Shown here piece by piece: positions 4,276 through 12,837 of a DNA stretch of 12,837 nt (position 1 is its first letter; each line of letters begins with the position of its first letter). The notes beneath the pieces were generated by a model, which did not search any database, was not told the origin of the DNA, and worked only from the letters and a program-made list of their open reading frames with translations. The position numbers and the translations under genes were made by a program. The stretch is from NCBI GenBank assembly GCA_903873095.1, contig CAIQMU010000057.1, forward strand, positions 1-12,837. The letters are read 5' to 3'. This stretch comes from an uncultured bacterium (lineage in GTDB: Bacteria > Patescibacteriota > Minisyncoccia > Phycocordibacterales > UBA1006).

Positions 4276-4905
4276 TTATTTCTTCTTTGAAACTTTCTTA
4301 GCAACTTTAGCTACAACTTTTTTAGGAGCTGCTGCTTTCTTTGCAACCTTTGTTTCTTTTGCTACTGGAGCAACTTTTGAAACTGTTGGCGCCGGTGCAA
4401 CTTCAGCCGGCTTTGAAGTCTGAGCCTTGTTGTTACTGATCGCCATAAGTGAAATCAACTGATCAAGTTTTGCAGAAACACTTGTAAGCTGTTTGAGAAC
4501 TTGGTCATTGTTTCCTTGTGCAGGTGCTGATGACTTGTTTTCCCAAGGTTTTGAAGCTCCTCGGTCGTTGTATGTCGGACGTGCATCACGATCGTTTGAT
4601 CGGAAACTTGATCGATCACCATAACTCACACGCGTAGGCCGTTCATCACGAACAAATACTTCATCTCCTCGCACCTTTGCGAAACAATCGTTACAAAGTA
4701 CATCCTTTCCAGAAACTGGTTTGAATGGAACTTGGCAAGGTTTTCCGCAACTTGTGCATGTTGCCTGGTACATTGGTCGGTCTGACTTGTCTCCAAAACT
4801 CTTTGGTTTTGAATCCCAAGGTTTTTTTGAAGCAAATGATGGTTTAAATCCACCTCGGTCTCCGCGGTCACCTCCGCCGAATCCTCCTCGTTTAAAATCT
4901 TTCAT
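4276..4905 (-). CDS. CxxC-x17-CxxC zinc-ribbon protein with RGG-like N-terminus and Lys/Ala-rich tail
   Basis: This 209-residue protein has three parts. Residues 1-45 are Gly/Arg/Asp-rich (KRGGFGGGDRGDRGGFK), resembling RGG-type RNA-binding tracts. Residues 46-75 form a zinc ribbon with C50, C53, C71 and C74, exactly CxxC-x17-CxxC, a small domain common in Patescibacteria. The middle (about 80-135) is low complexity, rich in Arg, Asp, Ser and Asn. A predicted helix (about 133-155, VLKQLTSVSAKLDQLISLMA) could be a short coiled coil. The end (160-209) is an Ala/Lys/Pro/Val tail ending KVAKKVSKKK, like histone-type or nucleoid-associated tails. A nucleic-acid-binding role is likely but inferred. 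The ATG has TAATAT 7 nt upstream, a weak -10. It is divergent from the deacetylase gene. Confidence 0.85.
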   Translation of the reverse strand: MKDFKRGGFGGGDRGDRGGFKPSFASKKPWDSKPKSFGDKSDRPMYQATCTSCGKPCQVPFKPVSGKDVLCNDCFAKVRGDEVFVRDERPTRVSYGDRSSFRSNDRDARPTYNDRGASKPWENKSSAPAQGNNDQVLKQLTSVSAKLDQLISLMAISNNKAQTSKPAEVAPAPTVSKVAPVAKETKVAKKAAAPKKVVAKVAKKVSKKK

Positions 4906-6984: not shown

Positions 6985-6990
6985 GTGATC

Positions 6991-8640
6991 ATGTCACGAA
7001 AACTTTTTATTGGAATAATAGGAATACTGATTTCCCTTATTGCCTCACACACATGCTTCGCAGATCCTCTTTGGTATGGGAACATTGTCAGTGTTTCAGG
7101 AGATACTGCATTGCTTGAATTTCGTGGACTTGAAAAAAAACATGATATGTCATGTGTTATTTCAACTCGTGAATGTTCTGAAACTTCACCATTCTTAACA
7201 AACACGATCCTTTCTCCTAATACATCTTCACATAAAAATAATTTTCGATTCCCAAGTATAAGCATCCACAGAAACGGCTCTTCTAATAATATTTTTAAAT
7301 TCTATACAACCATCAGCTCATCAAACAAACGAACACTCTCACTTGTAAATACAAAAACTAAAAAAACATACTCTATCAGTAGTGCGCTCCATTTTTGGAA
7401 CCTCCTTGATTTACAACCTCGTGTTTCAAAATTTTCTCCCGACAACACAAAACTCGCTTATATTGATGATCGATCAGGATTCATATCGCTTTACATTACC
7501 AACCTTACAACACTTTCAAAAACTGGCCTATCGGGAACAAAAATAACATCTGACGTTTCTGTTGGTGATTTTACATTTGCGGACTCTCATACACTTCTCT
7601 ATGTTGCAAACACAACAAACGATCCCTATGATTGGGTTTTGTATTCTTATGACACCAATACACAAGTAACCACATCCCTTGCTCACCATCTCACCTACGA
7701 CAGCATCCTCCATCAATCAGGAAATTCCATCGTATTTACAAAACTCGGACCACTTGGAACAATTCCTGTTATTCTCACTGATTATCACGGAATAGATTTA
7801 CAAGATTTTAAACTACCCATTTCAACACCCGCATCTACAAATACTATTTCATATACGTATCAAAACATTGCAGGTTTCGACACCGTTGTCATGTCTAATC
7901 ACACGATCGATACAGTAAAACACCCCTTAATTATTTGGCTTCACGGCGGACCCTATCGACAATCAAGTTTTGTTCGCCACACATACATCAGTTATGGTGT
8001 GTATGATTGGGATTTGGAACAAGCCGTAAACCAAGGTGCGTACGTTGTTAAAATCGACTACCCAGGCAGTTACGGCAGTGGTCGAAAAAATACTGAGAGT
8101 ATCAAATCCGGCGTGGGACTTGTTGATGTAAAATCTGTTGAAGATGTTATCAATGACTTTGTTGCGCATAATACTGTTGATGGAGTTTACCTTGTTGGAA
8201 ATAGTTACGGCGGATATTTAGCACTGCGAACAGCTGTTGCGTATCCTGATCAAGTTGACGGAGCACTGTCTATCAATGGAATAACTGATTGGCAAAGCCT
8301 CATGATTTTTTACAAAAATTCTATCTTCAATGAATTCTTCGGAGGATTACCAAGTTCACATAATAAAAAATTATTTGCTCAGGCAAGCATCTTTTCTCGT
8401 GTTAAAAACTTGAAACATCCTGTCTATATTATCCAAGGTGAAGTTGATTCTACGGTTCCTAAATTTCAAGCGACTACTCTCAAATCAGCACTTGATACAG
8501 CAGGAAAACAATCAATGCTTCTTATGATTCCAAACGAAAATCATGTGTTTGAAAAAGATTCAAGTATTAATACTATTTGTACAACACTCTTTCAAATGGT
8601 TGGGTTTAGTGATACATCATCATGTAATCTAAATGGATAA
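6991..8640 (+). CDS. Secreted S9 (prolyl oligopeptidase) family serine peptidase
   Basis: This protein of 549 residues carries a signal peptide (MSRKLFIGIIGILISLIASHTCFA, cleavage likely before DPLW), so it acts outside the membrane. The N-terminal half (about 25-290) is rich in beta strands with repeated motifs such as FSPDNTKLAYIDD, consistent with a short beta-propeller. The C-terminal alpha/beta hydrolase domain has WLHGGP (oxyanion region, about 313), GNSYGG with nucleophile S405, D486 in QGEVDSTVP and H518 in NENHVFEK. The Ser-Asp and Asp-His distances (81 and 32 residues) fit family S9. Members cleave short peptides, often after Pro, or as acyl-/dipeptidyl-peptidases; specificity cannot be read here. 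No terminator follows, so readthrough into the downstream operon is possible. Confidence 0.9.
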   Translation: MSRKLFIGIIGILISLIASHTCFADPLWYGNIVSVSGDTALLEFRGLEKKHDMSCVISTRECSETSPFLTNTILSPNTSSHKNNFRFPSISIHRNGSSNNIFKFYTTISSSNKRTLSLVNTKTKKTYSISSALHFWNLLDLQPRVSKFSPDNTKLAYIDDRSGFISLYITNLTTLSKTGLSGTKITSDVSVGDFTFADSHTLLYVANTTNDPYDWVLYSYDTNTQVTTSLAHHLTYDSILHQSGNSIVFTKLGPLGTIPVILTDYHGIDLQDFKLPISTPASTNTISYTYQNIAGFDTVVMSNHTIDTVKHPLIIWLHGGPYRQSSFVRHTYISYGVYDWDLEQAVNQGAYVVKIDYPGSYGSGRKNTESIKSGVGLVDVKSVEDVINDFVAHNTVDGVYLVGNSYGGYLALRTAVAYPDQVDGALSINGITDWQSLMIFYKNSIFNEFFGGLPSSHNKKLFAQASIFSRVKNLKHPVYIIQGEVDSTVPKFQATTLKSALDTAGKQSMLLMIPNENHVFEKDSSINTICTTLFQMVGFSDTSSCNLNG

Positions 8641-8655
8641 TCCTTGTGATGATCC

Positions 8656-8683
8656 TTGCAATTTTTGATAATTAATTTATACT
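8656..8683 (+). promoter_or_regulatory. Promoter of the PqqD-GT-kinase-GT-nucleotidyltransferase operon
   Basis: TTGCAA (8656-8661) and TATACT (8678-8683) are separated by 16 nt. The -10 ends 10 nt before the ATG at 8694, giving a leader of zero to a few bases. This is the best-formed -35/-10 pair on the plus strand. Confidence 0.6.
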
Positions 8684-8693
8684 GACCCTTGTC

Positions 8694-9071
8694 ATGGTTA
8701 CTACAAAAACATATCGTATTGATCGCAATAAAGCGATTAGTGAAACCCTCGATGGAGAAACGATTATCATCAATCTTGAAACGGGAACTTACTACAGTAT
8801 GAATGAGGCCGGGACTGCTGTCTGGGACGCTATCGGAAAAGAATTACCCATTAATGTTACAGAATCATTCGTAACTGATTTTTTGGTTTTCCTTGAACGA
8901 GAAAACTTGATTGCCAATCTGTCTGAATCTGAATCTGAATTATCAGCGTGTTTTACTGCAAATGAAAAACCTGTCATTGAAAAATATAGCGATATGCAAG
9001 AAATGCTTCTTGCTGATCCTATTCACGATGTTGATACGGCTGGTTGGCCAAAAATGAAAGATGTTGAATAA
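8694..9071 (+). CDS. PqqD-like (RiPP recognition element) protein with conserved-looking C-terminal tail
   Basis: This protein of 125 residues is PqqD-like. Residues about 5-75 form a PqqD/RRE-like winged-helix domain: GETIIINLETGTYYSMNEAGTAVWDAI (21-47) is the family's beta-hairpin plus first helix, and FVTDFLVFLERENLIANL (59-76) its last helix. PqqD proteins bind leader peptides and deliver them to modifying enzymes. A Ser-Glu linker (SESESE, 77-82, encoded by three TCTGAA repeats) separates a 34-residue tail: KPVIEKYSDMQEMLLADPIHD (92-112), then VDTAGWPKMK. From memory, tails of the form DPIHDVD...GWP recur on proteins near HprK-like kinases and PF14907 proteins, but I cannot verify this here. 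It is the first gene of the operon. PQQ synthesis genes are absent. Confidence 0.85.
   Translation: MVTTKTYRIDRNKAISETLDGETIIINLETGTYYSMNEAGTAVWDAIGKELPINVTESFVTDFLVFLERENLIANLSESESELSACFTANEKPVIEKYSDMQEMLLADPIHDVDTAGWPKMKDVE
8922..8939 (+). repeat. Triple TCTGAA hexanucleotide repeat
   Basis: Three perfect in-frame copies of TCTGAA encode Ser-Glu three times at the domain-tail junction of the PqqD-like protein. Copy-number change would alter linker length without shifting the frame. Confidence 0.8.
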
Positions 9072-9075
9072 TACT

Positions 9076-9759
9076 ATGTCCATGCACCTTATTTCGGTAA
9101 TTATTCCGTATTATAAAGGAGAGCGTTTCATTGCCGAGACGCTTAATTCGGTATTTCGACAACAGTATCCAAATTTGGAAATCATTATTGTAAATGATGG
9201 ATCACCTGTTGATTCACTTGTCGCACTTGAACCGTTCCGTGATCGTATTGTTCTTGTTTCTCAAGAAAACAAAGGTCAAGCCTCTGCGCGAAATACCGGA
9301 ATTACATATGCACATGGAGATCTGATTGCATTTCTTGATCAAGATGACATATGGACTGATAATCACCTGGCACTTCTATTGCCGTATGTGATAGGAGAAT
9401 CTTCTTTCGCATTTGCGCAGGGAAAAATTCAAGAATTTCGCACAGACCAAGAAGGCCATATCCATGCGGATGAGCCCAAGCTACATCCAGTAATGATCGG
9501 CTCATCATTATTCACATCAAAAACTATTCATACCGTCGGGATGTTTGACGAGTCCATGCGCGAAGGCGAGGATTTCGATTGGACTGTTCGATTACAAGAA
9601 ACAGGACTCGTTGGTAATATAATTCCGGATGTAACATTTCTCTATCGAAGACATGAAACAAATTATAGTAATACTCCTGATTTTGTTCAGAAAGGAGAAT
9701 TTCTCACCATCAGAAAAAAACTTGAGCGTTTGAAAAGAGATCGGCAAGAAAATAATTAA
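9076..9759 (+). CDS. GT2-family glycosyltransferase
   Basis: This 227-residue cytoplasmic GT-A fold enzyme transfers a sugar from a nucleotide-sugar donor. The Rossmann-like start ISVIIPYYKGERFIAETLNSV (6-26) is followed by VNDGS (39-43), KGQASARNTG (66-75), FLDQDDIW (86-93, the metal-binding DxD as DQDD) and GEDFDW (164-169, general base region). It ends with RRHETNYSNT, similar to RRIHATNTG in the second GT2 of this operon. There is no membrane segment, so it probably works on a soluble or membrane-surface acceptor. Start codons at 9061, 9076 and 9082 are all in frame. I chose 9076 because family members begin only a few residues before the first strand and because 9061 would overlap the PqqD-like gene. 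No Shine-Dalgarno is present. Donor and acceptor are unknown. Confidence 0.9.
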   Translation: MSMHLISVIIPYYKGERFIAETLNSVFRQQYPNLEIIIVNDGSPVDSLVALEPFRDRIVLVSQENKGQASARNTGITYAHGDLIAFLDQDDIWTDNHLALLLPYVIGESSFAFAQGKIQEFRTDQEGHIHADEPKLHPVMIGSSLFTSKTIHTVGMFDESMREGEDFDWTVRLQETGLVGNIIPDVTFLYRRHETNYSNTPDFVQKGEFLTIRKKLERLKRDRQENN

Positions 9760-9768
9760 AACACATTT

Positions 9769-10842
9769 ATGAATCAGCCCCCGAAACACATCCTCATGAA
9801 AAATTTCCTCGCAGTCGAGCGTGGGTATTTTGATCGGGTTCTATATCCATCACTTGTTGAAACACAGCAGATTATTTCTCCTATTACAAAAACATATCTT
9901 ATTGCGGGTCGCCGTGTACGTATTCATTTTTATGGTGAAACCGTTGCACATATTTATTCACTTGCACTAACCCATCATCCGTTATTAGATAATTCAGATG
10001 CTGATCTGACTATTTATGCATGGGACGGAACAACGATTGGGCGGCACATGATGGCACCTTGGGATGAATCAACATTTGAAAAAAACTACACACCTCATCA
10101 AGTGTCGTTTTTTGGTGTTTATGTCGGAGGTGAAGAATCTCTCAGTTTTTATGACGAGGAAACAAAGACCGGATATTTTTGGACCAACGATGCATCTGTA
10201 TTGCCTGACTGGGTAACCGGTGCACCGTTTAGAACAATTTTGCACTGGTTTTTAAACGAATCAAATATTCATTTAATGCATGGTGCTGTGGTTGGAACCA
10301 ACGATTCATCGGTACTCCTCACTGCAAAAAGTGGTTCAGGCAAATCAACAACCGCGCTTTCATGTCTGCTTTCAGGAATGAATTATCTTGCTGACGATTA
10401 TATTGCAATTGAAGGATTAGACAAATCTGTAACAGCTCACAGTCTGTATCATTCAGCAAAAGTAACTAAACATGGACTAACCTTGTTCCCTGAGCTTCAC
10501 GAACACGTATGGAATAAGAATTTTGATGAACGAGAAAAGGCAATCATGTTTATCAACGATGTTTTCCCACATCAAACAAAACGAACTGCGAATCTAAATG
10601 CTGTATTAATTCCTAAAATCAGTTCCGGCCCGACACGACTTGTTCCTGCGACAAAAATTCAGGCATTGGTTGCTATTGCACCAACAACACTTCTTCAACT
10701 TCCTCTTGCTGAAACTGATAAAATTCAAGCGTTCAAAAATATCATTGAAAAAATTCCTTGTTACTTTTTGGAACTTGGACCTGAGATTCGTGAAATTCCT
10801 GATGTTATCAAGTCATTTTTAAATAATGGTACACTTGAGTAG
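9769..10842 (+). CDS. HPr-kinase-like P-loop kinase (HprK-related)
   Basis: This protein of 357 residues has a C-terminal HPr kinase-like P-loop domain. MHGAVVG (170-176) is followed by the Walker A loop AKSGSGKST (186-194) and by LADDY (207-211, D209/D210), which is the arrangement of HprK-type kinases. The N-terminal 160 residues differ from the HprK regulatory domain and are rich in aromatic beta strands. No HPr or other phosphotransferase gene is nearby. In lasso-peptide clusters such proteins phosphorylate the peptide (the paeninodin kinase, from memory), and related ones sit in exopolysaccharide loci. The partner here is probably a protein or peptide made by the same operon, such as the PqqD-like tail; that is inference. 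It starts 9 nt after the first GT2 gene, without Shine-Dalgarno. Confidence 0.88.
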   Translation: MNQPPKHILMKNFLAVERGYFDRVLYPSLVETQQIISPITKTYLIAGRRVRIHFYGETVAHIYSLALTHHPLLDNSDADLTIYAWDGTTIGRHMMAPWDESTFEKNYTPHQVSFFGVYVGGEESLSFYDEETKTGYFWTNDASVLPDWVTGAPFRTILHWFLNESNIHLMHGAVVGTNDSSVLLTAKSGSGKSTTALSCLLSGMNYLADDYIAIEGLDKSVTAHSLYHSAKVTKHGLTLFPELHEHVWNKNFDEREKAIMFINDVFPHQTKRTANLNAVLIPKISSGPTRLVPATKIQALVAIAPTTLLQLPLAETDKIQAFKNIIEKIPCYFLELGPEIREIPDVIKSFLNNGTLE

Positions 10843-10846
10843 TATT

Positions 10847-11539
10847 ATGAATTCTTCATCACCCCTCGTCAGTGTTATCCTCCCTGTTTATAACATGGAA
10901 AAATATGTCGCCGAATCGATTCACAGTGTTTTAGATCAGACATATAACAACATCGAGATTATTTGTATCAACGATGGATCAACTGACAACTCACTCGAAT
11001 TATTAAAAACGTTTGGAAACAAGATTATTATTGTTGAATGCGCACAAAACGGCGGGATCGGCGCAGCGCGAAATGCGGGAATTGCTGTCGCAACAGGTGA
11101 CTTTTTGGCTCTCATGGATGCAGATGATATGTGGGAACCTGCAAAAATAGAAACTCAAATAAATCAGTTCAAGCGAAATACGCATCTTGATATTTCGTTT
11201 TGTTATATGAAATGTTTTCTCAGTCCTGATCTGCCTGATGAAATAAAAGCAATTCGTCATTGCCCACCAGAACCCATGCCAGGACAAGTATCCGCAACCG
11301 CAATGATTAAAACATCGTCATTTTGGAAAGTAGGATTATTTGATCCAAAATGGCGCGTCGGTGAATTTATTGATTGGATGACCAAGGCGATCGAACACGG
11401 ACTAACATATGAAATGCTTCCAGATGCATTTCTCCTTCGTCGTATTCATGCAACAAACACTGGTGTAATCGAACGACCATCGCGCACTGACTACTTGAAA
11501 ATAGTAAAGGCAGCACTCGACCGCAAACGATCTATGTAA
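10847..11539 (+). CDS. Second GT2-family glycosyltransferase
   Basis: This protein of 230 residues is a paralogue-like partner of the first GT2. It has VSVILPVYNMEKYVAESIHSV (8-28), INDGSTDNS, GGIGAARNAG, LMDADDMW with the DxD metal site, VGEFIDW in place of GEDFDW, and RRIHATNTG near the end. The missing acidic residue in the GED-like motif (GEF) may alter catalysis or simply move the base. Cysteine-rich FCYMKCFLS at about 126-134 is unlike the first GT2. There is no membrane segment. Its ATG at 10847 lies 4 nt after the kinase stop; an in-frame ATG at 10826 would overlap the kinase by 17 nt. Co-operonic with the kinase and nucleotidyltransferase, it probably acts on the same acceptor, which is unknown. 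Confidence 0.88.
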   Translation: MNSSSPLVSVILPVYNMEKYVAESIHSVLDQTYNNIEIICINDGSTDNSLELLKTFGNKIIIVECAQNGGIGAARNAGIAVATGDFLALMDADDMWEPAKIETQINQFKRNTHLDISFCYMKCFLSPDLPDEIKAIRHCPPEPMPGQVSATAMIKTSSFWKVGLFDPKWRVGEFIDWMTKAIEHGLTYEMLPDAFLLRRIHATNTGVIERPSRTDYLKIVKAALDRKRSM

Positions 11540-11544
11540 TTTAT

Positions 11545-12765
11545 ATGAATAAGCTTATTAAAAAATTACCTATTCCTGAAAGTTTTCCAAACAAAGAAGA
11601 AACTCTCACCCTTAAACTCATTCTATGCAAAGATGAAGAATTTTTAACTATGTGGGAAATATGGAAATCATCTGTCGTGTTTGATGATATTGATTTTGCA
11701 ACACTCAGAATTCTTCCTATGGTATACACACGCTTGATTAATCTTGGTATTTCTGATGAATTAGCCGGCAAGATCAAGGGGGCTTATCGCATGGCTTGGG
11801 CTAAAAATCAAAAAACATTACATTCTGCCGCAGATGCCATCAAACTTCTAATGGATGCCGGCATTCCTGTTATGGTTCTCAAGGGTATTCCCTTGCTTGT
11901 TAATTATTACAAAGACACTGGTGCCAGATTTATGGGCGATGCTGATATTCTTGTAAAACCAGGCGATGTAAAAAAATCAATCGAACTACTCCGAAAAAAT
12001 AATTGGCACTATGTCGATAAAGCATTCGAATCAGCGCACAATTCAAATACGGCTGGTATTATGAATGTCACCAAAGAAACAAATTTTCAAGATTCGAATG
12101 GAAATGAAATCGATGTGCACTGGGGACTTTTTCACAGTACCAATAGACTCGGATTACTTGATCAATTATTTGGTAATAATCATGACCATATTCTTGCATT
12201 CGAAGACTTGGAGCCACGATCGTTACCTATCTCATTCGCAGGTACATCTTGCATGATGCCTTCACACGAAGATTCTCTCATTCATGTTATCGCCCATGGT
12301 TCTGTACGAAATGACCATCGCGCGATTCGTTGGGTAACGGACGCAACTGCGATTATTCGAAACTCATCACTTGATTGGGATTATCTATTGCAGCAGACAC
12401 AAAAATTTTCATTTGTTATTGAAATGCAGGTAGCGCTTCGTTACCTAAAAGAAACATACTCTGTAGAAATTCCTGATGATTTCTTGCGAACCCTTGCAAC
12501 TATTCCTGTAAAAAAATCCAATATCAAGCGTTATTATAAAAATGCAAACGGAACTCCGTATACATTACTTGGTGCATTTCCCTTGCTATGGCGAACGTAT
12601 TGGTCATCACATAAACACGGATCATTCTTAAAACGAACTGTCGGATTCCTTGATTACAGCGCAAAATCATTCGGCCTTCCAAACAAACGATCCCTTGTAT
12701 CATTCGCAGTAAAAAAATATATCGAACGACTTACCTATTACTTGAAAAAAATATTCCAAAAATAA
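11545..12765 (+). CDS. Nucleotidyltransferase-fold protein, PF14907 type
   Basis: This soluble protein has 406 residues. The nucleotidyltransferase core starts near 107: VMVLKGIPLLVNYY, then GARFMGDADILVKP (126-139) with the metal pair D132 and D134, and later NEIDVHWGLFHST (about 188-200), which carries the third acidic residue. This order (LKG...R.mgDaDiLV...iDvHW) matches the uncharacterised nucleotidyltransferase family PF14907. The C-terminal half is mainly helical (HVIAHGSVRNDHRAIRWVTD, then the end). In the pseudomycoidin lasso cluster a homologue is reported, as I recall, to add hexose to a phosphorylated peptide. Here it may transfer NMP or a sugar to the kinase product, which is inference. 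It starts 5 nt after the second GT2 and ends at a strong hairpin. Confidence 0.85.
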   Translation: MNKLIKKLPIPESFPNKEETLTLKLILCKDEEFLTMWEIWKSSVVFDDIDFATLRILPMVYTRLINLGISDELAGKIKGAYRMAWAKNQKTLHSAADAIKLLMDAGIPVMVLKGIPLLVNYYKDTGARFMGDADILVKPGDVKKSIELLRKNNWHYVDKAFESAHNSNTAGIMNVTKETNFQDSNGNEIDVHWGLFHSTNRLGLLDQLFGNNHDHILAFEDLEPRSLPISFAGTSCMMPSHEDSLIHVIAHGSVRNDHRAIRWVTDATAIIRNSSLDWDYLLQQTQKFSFVIEMQVALRYLKETYSVEIPDDFLRTLATIPVKKSNIKRYYKNANGTPYTLLGAFPLLWRTYWSSHKHGSFLKRTVGFLDYSAKSFGLPNKRSLVSFAVKKYIERLTYYLKKIFQK

Positions 12766-12794
12766 AACACCGCGATGATCGCGGTGTTTTATTT
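12764..12794. terminator. Strong, nearly symmetric terminator ending the operon
   Basis: A 12-bp perfect stem AAAACACCGCGA / TCGCGGTGTTTT (12764-12775 with 12779-12790) has loop TGA and T/A-rich flanks on both sides. The TAA stop of the nucleotidyltransferase (12763-12765) overlaps its left edge. The symmetry would allow it to terminate a converging minus-strand gene as well. Confidence 0.9.
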
Positions 12795-12801
12795 TAAACT
12801 A

Positions 12802-12837
12802 TTAGATCAACTGCTGACCTGATGTAATTTGTGATGT
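12802..12837 (-). CDS. Possible C-terminus of a converging gene cut by the right edge
   Basis: On the minus strand the last 33 bases read as eleven open codons ending QITSGQQLI, with a TAA stop at 12802-12804, just beyond the symmetric terminator. Only eleven codons are visible, so coding status rests on the terminator's symmetry and is weak. Confidence 0.25.
   Translation of the reverse strand, partial: TSQITSGQQLI

Follow-up and report, generated by a model that had tools for sequence, protein, structure and literature searches.

The operon and its setting

The window analysed here is an entire contig (G000:C57) of 12,837 nucleotides. The genes and features at issue are as follows.

8694-9071, + strand: g1, 125 aa, PqqD-type RRE with a conserved tail fused at its C-terminus
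8961-8987, + strand: recognition-like strand of g1, residues 90-98 (NEKPVIEKY), predicted by AlphaFold2
8988-9053, + strand: conserved core-like tail of g1, residues 99-120 (SDMQEMLLADPIHDVDTAGWPK)
9061-9759, + strand: g2, 232 aa, short GT2 glycosyltransferase with DQDD and a C-terminal RRHxxN
9769-10842, + strand: g3, 357 aa, HprK-like kinase of a distinct subfamily, after a 9-nt gap
10826-11539, + strand: g4, 237 aa, second short GT2 with DADD and RRIHxxN
11545-12765, + strand: g5, 406 aa, PF14907 NTP_transf_5 protein, after a 5-nt gap
12759-12795, + strand: terminator hairpin, -22.8 kcal/mol, z -8.1

All five open reading frames lie on the + strand and are free of internal stops, as a sequence-only reading of this DNA had stated, and the tight spacing of 4-9 nt that it described is recovered as gaps of 4, 9, 4 and 5 nt with the alternative starts ATG 9076 for g2 (4 nt from g1) and ATG 10847 for g4 (4 nt from g3). 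Its single terminator also stands, the fold energy of the hairpin being equalled in 0 of 200 shuffles. Its ‘one good promoter’ does not: the signal upstream of g1 is no better than chance. Counting both strands, 8400-12837 holds 20 promoter-like sites where shuffled sequence gives 14.6 ± 3.7, and the candidate at 8656 agrees at 9 of 12 positions. A prolyl-oligopeptidase-like gene directly upstream was rejected as a member of the set, having no BLAST match in 27 loci. In the scan of window proteins, sugar genes beyond the five are limited to one polysaccharide deacetylase, 2.8 kb upstream.

The two glycosyltransferases match PF00535 (Pfam) with 101 bits (7e-29) for g2 and 127 bits (1e-36) for g4. 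The g5 product matches PF14907 with 136 bits against a cut-off of 31.2 (Pfam), and K113, R128, D134 and D266 are invariant across its alignment (n=14); a profile search for a PDB relative of PF14907 at E 0.01 found none. For g3 the match to Hpr_kinase_C (PF07475) is 28 bits, below the Pfam cut-off of 33.3, and the kinase identity proposed earlier is borne out by the invariance of H171, G191, K192, T194, D209, D210 and K257 across the alignment (n=15) and by a family profile that matches HPr kinases in the PDB at E 2.4e-5. None of the NCBIfam models listed for g1-g5 and five homologous proteins attains its cut-off.

An RRE with a built-in tail

The g1 protein matches PqqD (PF05402) with 25.4 bits against a Pfam cut-off of 23.4, and its RRE is closest to the lasso RREs TbiB1 and TfuB1, which upholds the suggested kinship with lasso-type tailoring proteins; structures of these lasso RREs have been solved with leader peptides bound. 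Family match and lasso-RRE-like fold together identify an RRE, whilst a strict definition, as worded in the available part of PMC12710340, asks for β-β-β followed by three α helices, and the AlphaFold2 model of g1 has only helices 38-48 and 58-69 before the tail; the homologue at locus L008 is modelled with three.

The protein ends in a conserved tail, PxIEKYxDMQEMLLADPIHDVxxxGWP, overlooked in the sequence-only reading. By its letters the start of this tail resembles the [Y/W]xxPx[L/V/I] leader motif bound by lasso and LPP RREs. AlphaFold2 predicts a strand at residues 95-98, within a block (91-100) of pLDDT 90, and an equivalent strand (IEKY, 113-116; block pLDDT 83) in the Uhrbacteria homologue; the g1 core that follows has a short predicted helix (101-106) and is otherwise unstructured at pLDDT about 50. 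Across 146 tails DP is present in 146/146, H in 99% and G, W and P in 88-89% each, in a set chosen partly by these letters: 120 of the tails (of 169 matches) have words in common with g1, and the other 26 were picked up by scanning with a pattern for the tail and another for the RRE, some sequences being duplicated between the two groups. Since this count is biased, loci found through the kinase were used as a check (below); over five of these and the window, identity is 60% in the tail and 32% in the RRE. No Ser/Thr is conserved in the 146 tails, and 58 of them have neither residue from DP to the C-terminal end.

An aromatic residue is present in 72 of 81 full RREs against 19 of 59 short RREs, in which helix α2 is lost (Fisher 3e-12). 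Of the 9 full RREs without a scored aromatic, 7 belong to gut-type loci, where the tail is spaced differently before the Y. We do not rely on this co-change, as it comes down to about 3 changes and 2-3 independent pairs and is not significant on the tree. Judged by eye, many of the short tail-bearing ORFs (120 listed of 148) resemble truncated genes that start within the last RRE helix; P0144, P0149, P0181 and P0187, also by eye, might be free-standing tails.

Recurrence of the set

That the set would recur elsewhere, as had been anticipated, is confirmed by an Uhrbacteria contig with the five genes in identical order and by the companions of the RRE gene within six picked ORFs on either side: kinase in 21, PF14907 in 20 and GT2 in 22 of 27 loci, with an ABC exporter in 7 of the 27, including the congener L007. 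The ORF picker overlooked the tail genes of L019/L062, L098 and L100, which were recovered separately. Tailed RREs are spread over Patescibacteria, Proteobacteria, Cyanobacteria, Chloroflexi and gut phyla, and a related set lies on a plasmid of Crinalium epipsammum PCC 9333, making experiments possible without culturing a Patescibacterium. GT2-kinase fusions (L032, L065, L099) and an RRE-tail-GT2 fusion (L012, in which the tail is internal and followed by the GT2) indicate that the glycosyltransferases belong with the set.

The link between tail and kinase was examined in 11 loci that kinase homology had brought up and the tail had not. In 10 of them a tailed RRE lies near the kinase, and the exception (L063, a 7.5 kb contig) comes from a genome with a tailed RRE on a different contig (L014). 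Loci with weaker HprK-like kinases have the tail in 0 of 23 and an RRE without tail in 9 of 23, this sample being 23 of 28 loci (L091-L095 left out), 17 of them seen as short slices only. The tail is therefore no artefact of tail-based searching. All 12 tailed genomes searched contain a kinase of the g3 family, and among 379 genomes of the phylum tail and full-length kinase occur in the same 2. The tail is thus linked to the g3-type kinase subfamily. In six of the 27 loci (L014, L015, L016, L019, L031 and L033) the tail is present and no kinase lies within 6 ORFs; some of them lie close to contig ends, and the L019 kinase is about 6 kb away.

Two variants bear on what the core does. In L032 and L098 it is divergent (ALDPP, with no H and no GW) while the enzymes are unchanged, and in five gut loci the kinase carries an extra RRE with a strand-like end (by eye) and no core, so that the role of the strand may be structural only. 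Both would suit a somewhat doubtful alternative in which g1 is a self-occupied scaffold, its cis strand permanently filling the RRE groove and its DPIHxV..GWP segment docking kinase, NTase and GT2s that modify another molecule; the internal tail of L012 and the want of a conserved Ser/Thr in the core point the same way. Such a scaffold gives no reason for the retention of an RRE that has a recognition-type strand, where a simple adaptor would have served. Neighbour clusters recurring over several loci are few beyond the five families, and an obvious substrate is not among them.

Neighbours in other taxa include glycosyltransferases, UDP-galactopyranose mutase, polysaccharide pyruvyl transferase and a sugar epimerase-like protein. 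The possibility raised earlier of a standard O-antigen locus does not apply to the window, where the ten proteins scanned include no such genes, though some relatives are close to sugar genes. The neighbours in other taxa would fit a glycan pathway with a sugar or small molecule as the substrate of the kinase and the PF14907 protein, subsequently lengthened by the GT2s, and with g1 in an accessory role. We consider this improbable: the deacetylase is the one non-set sugar gene among the scanned window proteins, the lasso RREs resembling g1 bind leader peptides in their solved structures, and radical SAM genes occur in L065, L020 and, below cut-off, L099. Radical SAM enzymes often modify peptides. 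No peptidase family was found among the neighbours profile-scanned one at a time, 34 (24 + 10) of one batch included.

Lasso genes and a separate precursor

The absence of a lasso cyclase and B2 protease, noted earlier for the stretch itself, extends to the genome (91% complete), which has no match to B2 (PF13471) and a single match to PF00733, starting MCGIVGIVG, which we take to be an AsnB-like, ordinary asparagine synthase; a lasso cluster was rejected on these grounds. Of ten other genomes with the set, 6 give no B2 match; in the remaining 4 the match sits on a different contig from the tailed loci or more than 250 kb away from them.

Neither the tail profile nor a leader regex found a separate precursor in 35 loci, the three regex matches each overlapping a known gene, and none of 12,332 frames from these loci carries the tail on a non-RRE protein. 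The archaeal-type SpI peptidase (TIGR02228) has no match in the own genome or the congener, and 3 weak matches in 12 genomes, none above cut-off. No ABC profile match to an MsbA-like exporter was found within the window. These searches bear on the idea that a precursor for an LPP- or lasso-like system is encoded elsewhere, and that the tail is a leader mimic stabilising or inhibiting the RRE until that precursor displaces it. The LPP pathway, whose kinase, NTase, RRE and exporter core goes with separate precursors in the available part of PMC13381572, offers a precedent. We nonetheless hold the idea to be quite unlikely: g1 is the single site that the tail profile picks up in the own genome, the SpI search gave no match there or in the congener and none above cut-off in 12 genomes, and the core after the strand is conserved beyond what a mimic would need.

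A proposed mechanism

The reading we favour, tentatively, is that the operon may be related to the lasso/LPP tailoring set yet stand alone, with RRE and ‘precursor’ in one polypeptide. The g1 RRE would have its leader groove occupied in cis by the protein's FxxPxI-E-K-Y-like predicted strand, fixing the DMQEMLLADPIHDVDxxGWP segment as a putative tethered acceptor or primer, on or beside which the kinase, PF14907 protein and two GT2s might build a phospho-sugar unit; in some relatives an MsbA-like ABC protein could export the product. Against an acceptor role we set the 58 tails without Ser/Thr, as the LPP kinase at its site modified Ser and not Thr or Tyr in the experiments covered by the available part of PMC13381572. 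We also count against the mechanism the internal tail of L012, the divergent cores of L032 and L098, the coreless extra RRE of five gut loci, the missing peptidase among neighbours, the six tailed loci without a nearby kinase and the L063 kinase without a tail. An RRE-precursor fusion in the full sense, in which the near-invariant core is the peptide that primes a phospho-oligosaccharide assembled on the cis-clamped segment, and recognition, substrate and carrier are one small protein, seems to us unlikely. As a speculation borrowed from the Asp-Pro chemistry of GDPH-type sites, the Asp-Pro present in every tail might cleave itself or form an ester and so pass the segment on to a glycan.

The set marks a thinly but widely distributed family of RRE-centred kinase/NTase/GT2 cassettes. 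A built-in recognition strand, if true, would be a novel mode of RRE use, and the conserved core offers one defined segment in which phosphate or sugar could be sought.

Comparison with known systems

HprK_rel_A, HprK_rel_B and the SynChlorMet ScmC/ScmD systems pair PqqD-like with HprK-like proteins, and in mycofactocin an RRE and a GT2 act on a conserved peptide; we know of no kinase or PF14907 protein in the latter set. Membership in any of these was rejected on scores far below cut-off: g3 reaches 28.1 of 200 bits for HprK_rel_A, ScmD scores 18.7-29.4 of 100 bits in 3 of 4 homologous RREs and is unlisted for g1, and the mycofactocin GT2 model gives g2 63 of 280 bits, among many GT2 models. 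Four plasmid records with plain PqqD-like matches, of which two bear the name lasso chaperone, align to a 153-aa tailed RRE within residues 4-96 only.

The paeninodin and pseudomycoidin systems, as far as the available part of PMC8498205 describes them, share an RRE (B1), an HprK-like kinase that phosphorylates a C-terminal Ser and a nucleotidyltransferase that puts hexoses on the phosphate. The window set differs in lacking B2, with only the AsnB-like synthase in its genome.

Also close is LPP of Bacillota (PMC13381572, 2026), on which the following holds for the part of the paper available. LPP is cyclase-free, with an RRE, HprK kinase, NTP transferase and MsbA-like exporter, so that the idea of a cyclase-free RRE/HprK/NTase system is not new. 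The earlier suggestion of an undescribed system thus falls for this part and survives for the tailed RRE, of which no published description was found, four tail letter strings being unmatched in the literature searched. LPP precursors are separate proteins of 35-200 aa with variable C-termini and a YxxPxVL leader, used with an archaeal-type SpI peptidase (PMC13381572), whereas the window set has a fused conserved tail, no SpI match in its own genome and no separate precursor found in 35 loci; we therefore rejected a canonical LPP system. The likenesses are a discrete RRE, an HprK-like kinase (in the window under its Pfam cut-off) and an NTP transferase without a lasso cyclase, and an MsbA-like exporter, on our side only in relatives of the window set. 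Some LPP sets also lie in capsule or glycosyltransferase-rich loci (PMC13381572). In the PbaB1 complex leader residues E-9 to L-7, after WxxPxL, extend the RRE sheet (PMC13381572), and the [Y/W]xxPx[L/V] recognition motif of LPP has its apparent counterpart in the strand of g1.

Genes and signals of the operon

The window is the entire contig G000:C57 (12,837 nt) of a genome of 656,782 nt in 122 contigs, 91% complete. ORF calling bore out the five forward-strand ORFs (g1–g5) of the sequence-only reading, and their spacing, claimed as 4–9 nt, is indeed tight, with gaps of 4, 9, 4 and 5 nt when starts 9076 and 10847 are taken. The claimed terminator is strong; the promoter, described as good, is indistinguishable from chance. 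Pfam assigns g1–g5, in order, to PqqD, GT2, HPr-kinase-like, GT2 and PF14907, the g3 match scoring 28 bits, below the cut-off of 33.3. The profile of the g3 family matches HPr kinases in the PDB (E 2.4e-5), and its kinase residues are invariant among 15 aligned sequences. Further genes of the window are:

384–1847: ORF presumably encoding a RelA/SpoT-type (p)ppGpp enzyme, judged by sequence
4276–4905: gene with relatives (42–45% identity) upstream of the Uhrbacteria set, L008
5011–5895: polysaccharide deacetylase (PF01522), in which a short near-repeat rich in Pro follows the N-terminal hydrophobic segment; relative (33% identity) also upstream of the L008 set
6985–8640, forward strand, ending 53 nt ahead of g1: protein resembling S9 prolyl oligopeptidases, its N-terminus bearing a hydrophobic segment; none of the 27 loci of the recurrence scan has a match

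From these resemblances, the neighbourhood may be partly common to the window and L008.

Recurrence of the gene set

The set, whose recurrence the sequence-only reading had left to be checked, was found again in other taxa: a scan of the g1 alignment against a collection with one genome per species (84,980 species) gave 27 loci. Gene order is identical in L008, is kept with an inserted ABC exporter in L011 (Paceibacterota), and is kept in L012 (Kaiserbacteria) with an ABC exporter and with RRE-tail and first GT2 joined in one gene; two deltaproteobacterial loci hold RRE, kinase, GT2 and PF14907. Within six picked ORFs on either side, the kinase occurs in 21 of the 27 loci, PF14907 in 20, GT2 in 22 (among them a 35-aa fragment at the edge of a contig and one gene on the opposite strand) and an exporter in 7, while kinase, PF14907 and GT2 are all absent from this range in L014, L015, L016 and L033. 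A kinase of the g3 family is nevertheless present somewhere in all 12 tailed genomes searched, including that of L014. At the congener locus, L007, the RRE is accompanied by kinase, exporter and PF14907, and the only GT2 lies further off on the other strand.

The set is rare in its own phylum. The g3 kinase occurs in 2 of 148 relatives (the window's genome and its congener), and the tail profile matches 2 of 379 genomes of the phylum, the same two that have the full-length kinase, with weak kinase matches in 8 more.

Further neighbours in relatives vary, comprising additional glycosyltransferases, sugar enzymes, a sulfotransferase and many genes without a family; family scans found no peptidase family among these neighbours. 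Radical SAM genes lie near the sets of L065 and L020, and in L099 below the cut-off. An RR[IL]HxxN-like C-terminal motif is found in 42 of 68 GT2-profile hits of the loci and window, including most of the short ones. Fusions were also observed: L012:1365-2576 joins RRE, tail and GT2, and a GT2 precedes the HprK-like kinase within one polypeptide in L032:8447-10195, L065:6524-8311 and L099 (frame from 105).

The claimed absence of a lasso cyclase and of the leader protease B2 (PF13471) holds in the window's genome, of which about 9% may be missing at 91% completeness: PF13471 has no match, and the sole PF00733 match begins MCGIVGIVG, which we take to be an asparagine synthetase B start. Genome G517 has both kinds of group: C20 and C25 carry tailed sets, C15 a plain-RRE group. 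The latter (about 32,485–37,500) combines its plain RRE with a weak HprK, a PF14907-like frame and a B2 gene in about 5 kb and is perhaps a lasso-type cluster.

Conservation of the g1 tail and its link to the kinase

The last 35 residues of tailed RREs mostly read P-x-[ILV]-E-K-[YF]-x-D-M-Q-E-M-L-L-A-D-P-[IV]-H-[DE]-V-x-x-x-G-W-P among 146 tails, drawn from 120 of 169 database hits (one the window protein) and from 26 loci, partly overlapping. D-P is found in 146/146, H in 99% and W in 89%, both sources having been picked partly by these letters; loci were therefore sought by kinase homology. This yielded 11 that had not already come from the tail, and in 10 of them a tailed RRE adjoins the kinase or lies one gene away:

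L064–L067, L096–L100: tailed RRE with kinase
L069 (NC_019735.1), mobilizable plasmid of the cyanobacterium Crinalium epipsammum PCC 9333: related set of tailed RRE, PF14907, kinase, FkbM, GT, SMP-30-like and ABC genes, with a gene for a group II intron reverse transcriptase close by

The eleventh, L063, on a 7.5-kb contig, has no tailed RRE. Among weaker HprK-like kinases (E above 1e-26 in genome searches; 23 of 28 loci examined), the tail is found in 0/23 and a plain RRE in 9/23. Across five kinase-found loci and the window, tail identity is 60%, against 32% for the RRE.

L032 and L098 have a divergent core (LALDPP..., lacking H and GW; read as ALDPP in L098) beside the same enzymes. Four short database ORFs with a tail and no recognisable RRE (P0144, P0149, P0181, P0187) are, by sequence, possible free-standing tail peptides.

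Predicted structure of the tail

According to a report on linear polyphosphorylated peptides (LPP; PMC13381572), lasso and LPP RREs bind [Y/W]xxPx[L/V/I/F/A] leaders as a strand extending the RRE sheet. In AlphaFold2 models I-E-K-Y forms a strand, at a block pLDDT of 90 for the window protein and 83 for the Uhrbacteria homologue, and DPIHDVDxxGWP is unstructured in both. The RRE is structurally closest to the lasso RREs TbiB1 and TfuB1, whose structures were determined with leader peptides, although Foldseek's own best E is 2.2e-3. The tail strand is predicted to dock in cis. An F/Y/W three residues before the P position is present in 72/81 full-length RREs versus 19/59 lacking helix α2 (the window's kind), an association that reflects only about three changes on the tree and proves nothing.

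Candidate function of the tail

Among 12,332 frames from 35 loci, no tail was found outside RRE frames, and the compact operons (window, L008–L010) have intergenic gaps too small for a further gene; the leading candidate for the role of substrate or tether is therefore the fused tail. A simple phosphoserine scheme is disfavoured, since 58/146 tails have no Ser/Thr from D-P onward and the LPP kinase reportedly leaves Thr and Tyr at its site unmodified (PMC13381572). The L012 tail is internal, and in five gut-type loci (L022, L024, L027, L028, L029) the HprK-like kinase itself ends in an RRE whose terminus looks strand-like by eye and which lacks the DPIH core. Weighing these points, we tentatively favour g1 as an RRE-precursor fusion acting as acceptor or primer, at somewhat below even chances. 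That the tail is instead a docking scaffold seems rather less likely, while an unlinked precursor encoded elsewhere and a glycan pathway are each improbable.

Comparison with known systems

Four letter strings of the tail were found in none of the 5.39 million papers searched. Nor did literature listings, together with passages of PMC12710340, PMC7470986 and PMC8498205, yield a description of the families or of RRE-fused precursors; work beyond these may exist. The LPP system of Bacillota (Nat Commun, May 2026; PMC13381572) comprises an RRE, an HprK kinase, an NTP transferase and an MsbA-like exporter with no cyclase, and has its core in common with the window set. In contrast to LPP, the window set has no match to the archaeal-type peptidase SpI in its genome, and the tail profile gave no separate precursor in 35 loci; it has in addition the tail and short GT2s with the C-terminal RR[IL]HxxN-like motif.
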